64,000 bases of DNA from the NCBI GenBank assembly GCA_025517465.1, contig JAOPKE010000002.1, positions 434,001-498,000 of the forward strand, read 5' to 3'. A model generated the notes under the pieces. That model ran no database searches. It had not been told where the DNA came from and was given only the letters and a program-made list of their open reading frames with translations. The stretch comes from Halobacteria archaeon HArc-gm2. GTDB lineage: Archaea; Halobacteriota; Halobacteria; Halobacteriales; Haloarculaceae. This document shows, in pieces, positions 16,626-46,353 of the stretch. Both the position numbers and the translations under genes were made by a program. How positions within the stretch are numbered: position 1 is the first letter of the stretch; each line of letters starts with the position of its first letter.

Positions 16626-17084
16626 GAAAGCCCTCGGCGCGCTCGTAGCTCCGCGGCTCGTTGCGCTCCTCGCTGACGCTGTCGTTCGAAAGACGCGCAG
16701 CGTCTTTCGTGATGACGAGAGAGCTTCGCTCTCTCGAACCACGGTGCTTACGTCGCCGGGGAGCCGACGACCGCGCCTCGCCCTTTCAGTCCTCCAGGTT
16801 CCGCAGCCCTGCCCTTCCCCTGGTCACGAGGGCCTCGCTGTTGCTCGGCCACTCGCTCCCGGCCGAGCGGTTGCGGAGCGGTCAGGACGCGTGATTCGCG
16901 CCGGACGGCGCGAATCCGGGGAGGAGTGGCGGACTCAATCGCTCGCGCGTTTCATCGCGCGATCGATGCAGGGCCTGGTGGAATGAAAGGGCGAGGTGCG
17001 CTGGCCGAAGCACGGATCCGCAAGCACGCGAGGAACGAGCGCGCGCAGCGTGGTCCGCGCGAGGCGAGCGCGCCGAGGGCTTTC
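16626..17084. repeat. Element A1: full inverted-pair structured repeat
   Basis: First of five copies of a dispersed element (label mine). It lies in a 726-base gene-free gap between convergent genes. Ends are perfect 20-base inverted repeats (16626-16645, 17065-17084). Inside come a nearly perfect second inverted pair (16773-16798, 16974-17001), paired hairpins joined by TGATGAC (16687-16735), and a central hairpin 16893-16916 with a GGAC loop. Shared similarity runs about 20 bases beyond the left end. The flanks 16490-16600 and 17105-17215 show nothing else I recognise. Confidence 0.85.
16687..16735 (+). ncRNA. Covarying hairpin pair of element A1 (candidate structured RNA)
   Basis: Hairpin one has 10-base arms cgaaagacgc and gcgtctttcg around gca. 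The linker is tgatgac. Hairpin two has 8-base arms gagagagc and gctctctc around ttc. The same layout recurs in A2 (right arm), A3 and A5 with different, still-pairing stems. Transcription is not shown, so RNA identity is inference; a DNA-level structure is the alternative. Confidence 0.5.
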
Positions 17085-29121: not shown

Positions 29122-29576
29122 GAAAGCCCTCGGCGGGCTGGAGTCGCGCGGACCACGCTGCGCGCGCTCGTTCCTCGCGTGCTTGCGGGCCCGTGCTTCC
29201 TCCAGCCCGCCTCGCCCTTTCAGTCCTCCAGGGCCAGCACAGCACCGCAGCCCTGCCCTCCCCCTGGTCGCGCGATGAAACGCGCTCCCGGCCGACCGCC
29301 GCGGTTGCGGGGCGGTCAGGAAGCGTGTCGCTCGCCGGACGGCGAGCGACCGGGGAGGTTTGGTGGAATTAATCGCAAGCGCGTGGCGAAGCCCGCGCGA
29401 GCGAGGCTGTCCCTGGAGGAATGAAAGGGCGAGGTGCGCTCGGCGAAGCCCGGCGAAGTAAGCACCGAACGGAGTGAGGCGCGTGGTTCGAGAGACCGAA
29501 GGTCTCTCGTCATCACGAAAATCTCCGATTTTCGGACGACAGCGAGCCGCGCGAGTTGAGCGAGCCGAGGGCTTTC
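29122..29576. repeat. Element A2: full inverted-pair structured repeat
   Basis: Second full copy, in an 859-base gap between the convergent bc operon and the DUF7313 gene. The left half-unit has a closing stem ggcgggctggag / ctccagcccgcc, fully complementary yet different from other copies. The right half-unit carries the hairpin pair in reverse (29486-29538). The central hairpin is 29327-29350 (arms gtcgctcgcc and ggcgagcgac, loop GGAC). Similarity continues about 25 bases past the right end. Bases 28963-29100 and 29640-29821 show nothing else. Confidence 0.83.
29327..29350 (+). ncRNA. Central covarying hairpin of element A2 (candidate structured RNA)
   Basis: Ten-base stem with GGAC loop, flanked by conserved ggcggtcagga before and ccggggagg after. 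The matching hairpins in A1 (16893-16916) and, on the minus strand, A4 (45904-45927) keep loop and flanks while the stem bases change in pairs. Expression is not shown. Confidence 0.5.
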
Positions 29577-37995: not shown

Positions 37996-38164
37996 GAAAG
38001 CCCTCGGCGCGCTCGGGTCCCGGGACTCGCTGTCGTTCGAGAGAGCGGAGCTCTCTCGTGATGACGAAAGGCGCGCAGCGCCTTTCGAACCACGCGCCTC
38101 ACTCCGTTCGGTGCTTGCTTCGTCCGGGTTCCCCGAGCGCACCTCGCCCTTTCAGTCCACCAGG
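37996..38164. repeat. Element A3: solitary half-unit
   Basis: A single half-unit in a 377-base gap between convergent genes. It begins gaaagccctcggcgcgctcg and ends cctcgccctttcagtccaccagg, with both ends pairing through ggcgcgctcgg / ccgagcgcacc. It contains hairpins cgagagagc-gga-gctctctcg (38038-38058) and cgaaaggcgc-gca-gcgcctttcg joined by TGATGAC. A stretch like the start of the central part of full copies follows to about 38225. No right half is present. Confidence 0.8.
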
Positions 38165-38299
38165 GAACCGCAACCGCAGCCCTCCCCTCCCCCGGTCGGC
38201 CGACGAGACGGCCTCCCGGCCGTGTGGTGCTGTAAGGACGTTTCGGGGAAGGACTGGACGGTCGCAGAGAATTCGACGGAGACGGGGAATCCGGGCTCG

Positions 38300-45736: not shown

Positions 45737-46128
45737 GAAAGCCCTCGGCGCGCTCGACTCGCGCGGCTCGCTGCGCTCCTCGCTCCGCTGCGGTGCTTGC
45801 ATCGCCGTGCTTCGCCGACCGCACCTCGCCCTTTCAGTCCTCCAGGCACGGCCTCGCTCGCGCGATGAAACGCGCTCGCGGTTGACTCCGCCACTCCTCC
45901 CCGGATTCGCGGCGTCCGCCGCGAATCACGCGTCCTGACCGCTCCGCAACCGCCCGGCTGTGGGCCGGGAGCGCGTTTCATCGCGCGACCAGGGGAAGGG
46001 CAGGGCCGCGGTACGGTGCCTGGGGGAATGAAAGGGCGAGGCGGGCTCCGGGAACCCCGGACCGATAAGCACGCGAGGGACGAGCGCGCGCAGTCGGTCC
46101 GCGGGACCGGAGCACGCCGAGGGCTTTC
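45737..46128. repeat. Element A4: full inverted-pair structured repeat, reversed centre
   Basis: Third full copy, in a 697-base gap between cruF and rtcB. The centre is inverted relative to A1 and A2: its hairpin (45904-45927, arms gattcgcggc and gccgcgaatc) matches them on the minus strand. The pair gatgaaacgcgctc / gagcgcgtttcatc (45865-45878, 45968-45981) flanks the centre. A further copy of the terminal sequence lies outside (46161-46180). Nothing else is seen in 45657-45715 or 46200-46353. Confidence 0.83.
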
Positions 46129-46353
46129 GAGTTGTTTGCGGTCCCAGTATCGACGCCAGAGAGCGCGCCGAGGGCTTTCGACGACTAGCTGTCGTTGCTC
46201 ATTTCACCAACGCAACCGAGAATCAAATAATCTGTACACAGCCATACGAATCATCCAGCGTCTACCACTCTCCATCGAAGCGTCTCCCCAGAGAGTCACG
46301 CACACGGTCCCGTCAGCTACAAGCCCGCGAGTCGAGTACGGCCACACCACGCT

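Follow-up and report, generated by a model that had tools for sequence, protein, structure and literature searches.

The central hairpin at positions 29327 to 29350 (plus strand) of the window, that is, of the whole 64,000-nucleotide stretch of HArc-gm2 DNA that was analysed, raises the question of what makes the two strands of its stem change together from one copy to the next, strong covariation usually being taken as a sign of a functional RNA. The hairpin, GTCGCTCGCC-GGAC-GGCGAGCGAC, has a 10-bp stem and a GGAC loop and belongs to the copy A2; its coordinates in the original prediction were exact, its siblings lie in A1 (16893 to 16916, plus strand, GATTCGCGCC-GGAC) and A4 (45904 to 45927, minus strand, GATTCGCGGC-GGAC), and the flanks GCGGTCAGGA and CCGGGGAGG are indeed conserved in all three. 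It forms the core of a full element of about 480 bp, a palindrome composed of an arm unit of about 109 nt, the centre and an inverted arm. The A2 core (29285 to 29358, plus strand) reads CTCCCGGCC..GCGGTCAGGAAGCGT, hairpin, CCGGGGAGG; to its left lies an arm unit (29122 to 29230, plus strand, C11:463122-463230) that matches the arm model and reads GAAAGCCC..CCCTTTC..TCCA, and to its right an inverted arm unit (29414 to 29576, minus strand, L009:1810-1972), the loop of which holds an additional hairpin. A1 has a left arm with an enlarged loop (16626 to 16796, plus strand) and an inverted right arm (16976 to 17084, minus strand), and A4, relative to its own centre, has a left arm of the CCCG type (46021 to 46128, minus strand, C11:480021-480128) and a right arm of the CGCG type (45737 to 45844, plus strand, C11:479737-479844). 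The truncated copy A3 (37996 to 38221, plus strand) consists of a left arm and the decayed start of a centre, a similar truncation being present in a congener. Further partial units of about 51 bp often lie outside the arms, such as that outside A4 at 46129 to 46179 (minus strand, GAAAGCCCTCGGCGCGCTCTCTGG..CAACAACTC), and at three places (L033 right, L021 right, L025 left) these outer units stand in tandem with up to 3 extra copies. The element contains no transposase gene and A2 no called gene, the long open frames of the latter either crossing its edges or being short.

BLAST against the HArc-gm2 genome itself (G000, 4.25 Mb) returned 183 matches, distributed over 40 scored places that all contain the core, and a centre model built from 41 sequences (R1) gave 82 matches at E<=0.01, or about 80 centres, while an arm model built from 40 sequences (R2) gave at least 150 matches. 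The 80 centres used for further analysis omit a partial second match in L105 and a weak match in L144, and L143 yielded no hairpin. With genes called around the centres by a simple codon score, 73 of the 80 loci had a gene on each side and an intergenic centre (25 convergent, 33 tandem and 15 divergent pairs, as compared to 24, 66 and 23, respectively, for the other gene pairs of these loci), in 3 the centre lay inside a frame that had itself been called, and the remaining 4 were incomplete. R1 found the centre in 3 of the 194 genomes of the class, namely G000, its congener G138 and G165 of another genus; copy numbers from the multi-genome model searches, which scored at most 19-23 candidates per genome, are lower bounds. 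Of the 69 hits in G138, 57 were examined (12 being left out), and of the 23 in G165, 15. R2 found the arm in 161 of the 194 genomes and in 56 of 65 genera, and the arm is, judged by these matches, a class-wide haloarchaeal unit. A phage origin was rejected, as phages and viral contigs both gave 0 matches, and a scan of named genomes, from which near relatives may be missing, yielded 3 bacterial records that seem to match by chance.

The element also had BLAST matches in 59 haloarchaeal plasmid records, most of them, among the matches listed, to the left arm. The backbones of haloarchaeal plasmids carry a single arm unit at a conserved position (L049, L050, L052, L054, L232-L241), and in the 14 plasmids in which it was aligned it adjoins genes that are short and either regulatory or hypothetical. 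In about half of these plasmids or more, an SSB/RPA-like gene, assigned as such by product name or by weak OB-fold Pfam matches, follows some 500-700 bp downstream of the arm, that position being taken in the remainder by a hypothetical gene or by one for TFB or a histidine kinase; two larger plasmid views place primase and primase-associated genes near the arm, with a named VirB4 gene in one. The plasmid arm, often upstream of an SSB/RPA-like OB-fold gene, is a possible candidate for a single-strand site. In two genera of one family (L179 of G149 and L180 of G066) the arm lies, in opposite orientations, upstream of a gene that resembles the one for the helicase Hef.

The covariation of the stem, claimed from A1, A2 and A4, proved to be strong throughout the genome when 41 copies were aligned and covariation statistics were run. 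In the central 10-bp stem 97.2% of cells are paired, 8 of the 10 pairs show two-sided changes, and the covariation score of 0.617 compares to 0.192 for shuffled alignments (0 of 500 reaching it), a control that ignores relatedness, and to at most 0.078 with the partner slid, which abolishes the signal. The arm stems, with 93.9% of cells paired, score 0.318 as compared to 0.104 when shuffled (again 0 of 500), and the arms of other genomes, plasmids and solo copies score 0.410 as compared to 0.116, albeit that these alignments (A8, A9, A10), being fitted to the arm model, lean towards its structure and that A9 includes some loci entered twice, identical rows being counted once. The covariation of central stem and arms against shuffles rules out a chance hairpin. 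The loop, which had been described as fixed, is not so across the genome: GGAC is found in only 85 of 124 standard-length hairpins from the two species, with GCCA in 24, GTCC in 6, GGAG in 4, GCTA in 2, and GAAC, GAAG and GACA in 1 each, and other loops, including GTTC, occur in the third genome. In a minority the four-base tip has flipped alone, from GGAC to GTCC. The original prediction had staked the covarying stem on changes being paired in further copies, which holds for most, a minority of 17 of the 124 standard-length hairpins having one or more unpaired positions. In G165 the boxes GGTCAGGAAGCGT and CGGGGAGG are kept around different stems that are still paired. A few centres (L132, L137, L140, L142, L227) have an enlarged hairpin of about 70 nt instead of 20-24 nt, the insert being alike in both species.

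One-sided intermediates differ between arms and centre. Of the 1072 cells in arm helices 2-4 of G000, 3 hold G·T, as compared to 33 with A·C, most of them at a single pair, and the rarity of G·T argues against stepwise RNA compensation in the arms; arm helix 6 has a near-invariant G·U. The central hairpins of the three genomes contain 32 G·T as compared to 7 A·C (16/6, 14/1 and 2/0), mostly at the outermost pair, an excess that leaves room for a strand-specific role that the centre may have.

The proposal that centre and arms behave as separate modules was borne out, as distance correlations from module to module are mostly near zero. The exceptions among 48 complete copies are the left arm with the right part of the centre (0.31, p 0.012), the left arm with the hairpin (0.15, p 0.002) and the hairpin with the right part of the centre (0.10, p 0.024). 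In a separate test on 19 standard-length copies the paired halves of one arm correlate at 0.69 and 0.65, as compared to 0.20 and 0.02 (left arm) and 0.52 and 0.35 (right arm) for the arm halves with the loop. Copies with a common hairpin share their flanks at 0.581 against a null of 0.547 (sd 0.016) and at 0.537 against 0.487 (sd 0.020), and as this excess is only slight no long conversion tracts are seen.

Comparison of the flanks of the 80 G000 centres with those of the 57 G138 centres examined (out of 69) yielded 48 orthologous pairs, one of which was dropped since its sides were inconsistent, leaving 47 pairs that represent 46 G000 sites and 45 G138 loci. The flanks of these pairs have a median identity of 93.1%, and mean identities of the modules are 0.826, 0.828, 0.773, 0.806 and 0.818 at orthologous sites as compared to 0.817, 0.790, 0.735, 0.798 and 0.791, in the same order, for non-orthologous copies; by this measure the interiors of orthologous elements are hardly more alike than those of unrelated copies. 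Aligned identity stays at about 0.5-0.7 up to 250 bases from the centre, passes through 0.74 at the edge and reaches 0.83-0.91 at about 350-600 bases. Identical hairpins are present at 6 of the 47 sites against 2.9 expected (p 0.056) and hairpins of the same class at 19 against 13.0 expected (p 0.03), so that a trace of common ancestry remains. Hairpin alleles that are common in G000 recur in G138, and simple saturation by point mutation was rejected since it would not yield shared alleles of 20-24 nt at different addresses. Ten of the 48 pairs (including the inconsistent, unused one) matched on one side only; moreover, left and right flanks of G000 elements at L026, L033 and L153 are re-paired at the G138 elements L068 and L213, and synteny breaks therefore fall at elements. 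Three G000 sites without a matched orthologue were tested in G138, where one showed a deletion of the core with both outer arm stubs kept and fused, another was occupied by a solo arm that belongs to a different subtype, and the third had a centre match, so that lack of a matched orthologue did not always mean an empty site. The A2 site is empty of the element in three congeners.

At the 38 sites with both flanks matched, orientation is kept in 33 and reversed in 5, and the inversion at fixed sites that the original prediction envisaged thus does occur, albeit as a turning of the element. In the flipped pairs the readable arms retain their type relative to the centre, so that it is whole elements that turn and not the centre between fixed arms. 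The outer arms, taken earlier to be symmetrical, are not, arms of the CCCG type making up 33 of 63 left arms and 4 of 64 right arms in G000, relative to the centre. The arms of A4, the copy in which the centre was thought to have inverted, are co-oriented with it (CCCG left, CGCG right), and the congener orthologue has the same orientation; judging from this comparison, A4 most likely simply lies in the other orientation. A centre that inverts between its own arms, as first read, would account for the 5 reversed sites, but is very improbable given that arm types turn along with the centre where they can be read and are tied to its orientation, and that the orientation of A4 is the same in both species.

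Comparison of the genomes establishes shared addresses (most of the sites compared) with scrambled contents, inversions, breakpoints and mosaics, and we consider it fairly probable that the covariation results mainly from the exchange of entire hairpins among old MITE-like palindromes, and not from stepwise RNA compensation. Such exchange would proceed by homologous recombination at ectopic positions or by gene conversion between copies, for which the short invariant blocks GCGGTCAGGAnGCGT and CCGGGGAGG and the GAAAG/CTTTC ends could provide homology; a hairpin would be replaced whole, both stem strands changing together, so that covariation would appear almost without one-sided intermediates, and occasional mismatched hybrids would be cleared either through another exchange or through correction templated by the hairpin. 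A DNA palindrome would be expected to give rise to inverted tips and interior deletions as by-products. The enzymatic route of exchange and the absence of an RNA role are what we infer. Several points weigh against module exchange: the evidence for recombination comes from comparison of sequences, the central hairpin has more G·T than A·C, in favour of a strand-specific role for it, the unpaired boxes persist in another genus, which is more than a passive repeat requires, some module pairs correlate (0.31, p 0.012, for the left arm and the right part of the centre), and copies with a common hairpin share only slightly more flank.

The same boxes, together with the strong covariation, the G·T excess (chiefly at the outermost pair), the near-invariant G·U of arm helix 6 and a fold z-score near -13 for the whole element, would suit a structured RNA, with transcription of the centre and perhaps also of the arms, selection on every copy for folding, and change of the stems by ordinary compensatory mutation. 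This is rather unlikely, however, as the variable arm helices nearly lack one-sided G·T (3 of 1072 cells as compared to 33 A·C), discrete hairpin alleles are reshuffled among loci, the inverted arms mean that a single transcript reads one arm as the other strand, both strands fold about equally well, and Rfam gave 0 matches at gathering score in the window. We do not think that an RNA function is needed to explain the element, although the centre may possibly have one. Repeated transposition into hot target sites, where one copy disappears and a new one takes its place, agrees with presence and absence, such as the empty A2 site in three congeners, with the different solo arm at one G138 site and with the near-identical G114 copies with terminal inverted repeats; yet 33 of 38 shared sites retain their orientation, as compared to about half under random insertion, contents are mosaic inside single elements and both outer arm stubs are retained at the core-deleted site, which together make this distinctly unlikely. 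Integron attC sites combine constant boxes with an intervening hairpin that varies yet stays paired, a layout to which the HArc-gm2 centre may be likened by resemblance only. A dedicated recombinase that swaps hairpins at the conserved boxes, as in a cassette system, would fit the fixed boxes around a variable hairpin, their retention across two genera and the behaviour of hairpins as units, but scarcely deserves credence because the slight excess of similarity near a common hairpin extends past the boxes, as generic recombination would give. An unlikely and broader conception is that of a hairpin-shuffling system in which about 80 fixed addresses are continually re-dealt one repertoire of structured DNA modules, built from the arm unit that is also found near primase and SSB/RPA-like genes of T4SS-type plasmids and that may be a single-strand site, and in which exchange may be guided by the boxes instead of being generic homologous recombination.

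For whole-hairpin exchange as we favour it, gene conversion, which is efficient in polyploid haloarchaea (PMC8223754), is the likely machinery, the published accounts consulted being concerned with equalising genome copies and not with dispersed repeats (PMC8223754, PMC11276520). The MITEs, SMRs and PATEs of Haloquadratum walsbyi include SMRs of about 110 bp and MITEs mostly below 500 bp, the types within a class being mostly homogeneous (PMC3119063). They resemble the HArc-gm2 repeat in being non-coding, transposase-free and multi-copy, with inverted ends in MITEs and SMRs, and the 'SwitchRepeats' (positions at which the repeat is a different one or is turned around) and 'Delete_Repeatcore' reported there represent the same phenomenology as our shared sites with other repeats (PMC3119063); the HArc-gm2 copies differ in that they are mosaics, strongly diverged from one another, whose hairpin covaries and whose arm unit is class-wide. 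The repeat looks like an old non-autonomous haloarchaeal mobile element of the MITE type by its sequence, having no transposase gene and inverted ends (inverted arms in G000, a terminal inverted repeat in G114). As an inverted arm pair it is unlike a PATE, which has near-terminal palindromes and no terminal inverted repeats, and at about 480 bp it is unlike an SMR (about 110 bp with inverted ends and without target duplication), a solo arm of comparable size being present elsewhere. Bacterial REPs are palindromic units of 20-40 bp with sequence tags, as compared to about 480 bp and structured arms in the HArc-gm2 element. What is shared with REP, BIME and REPIN sequences, as far as the sources describe them, is the abundance of intergenic palindromes and the mosaic assembly of units (PMC3733652, PMC2817692, PMC3116915). 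Our searches of the open literature found no published description of the repeat family, a transposase-free repeat of haloarchaea that is of a known kind and the novelty of which lies in its unusual shuffling structure. The two relatives display the covariation expected of a functional RNA with whole hairpins swapped and nearly no intermediates, and as the hairpins swap between loci, covariation in dispersed prokaryotic repeats can arise from module exchange. The dozens of sites shared by the two species are a natural record of archaeal ectopic recombination, and the work draws attention to an arm unit that plasmid backbones share with most of the haloarchaeal genomes examined.

Two related forms of the palindrome were also observed. 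G000 harbours a second, smaller subtype (L156:972-1211 on C3 and L157:978-1241 on C11) in which two inverted arms, GAAAGCCCC..CCCCTTTC, are separated by a short spacer and the centre is missing. The congener G114 (L175-L178) has elements of about 370 bp that are about 97% identical and carry the terminal repeat GTAGTGTTCAGATAAG; a possible 10-bp direct repeat, read by eye, adjoins one of the four copies, and two types of outer stem are reciprocally recombined between copies (L175 as compared to L178).
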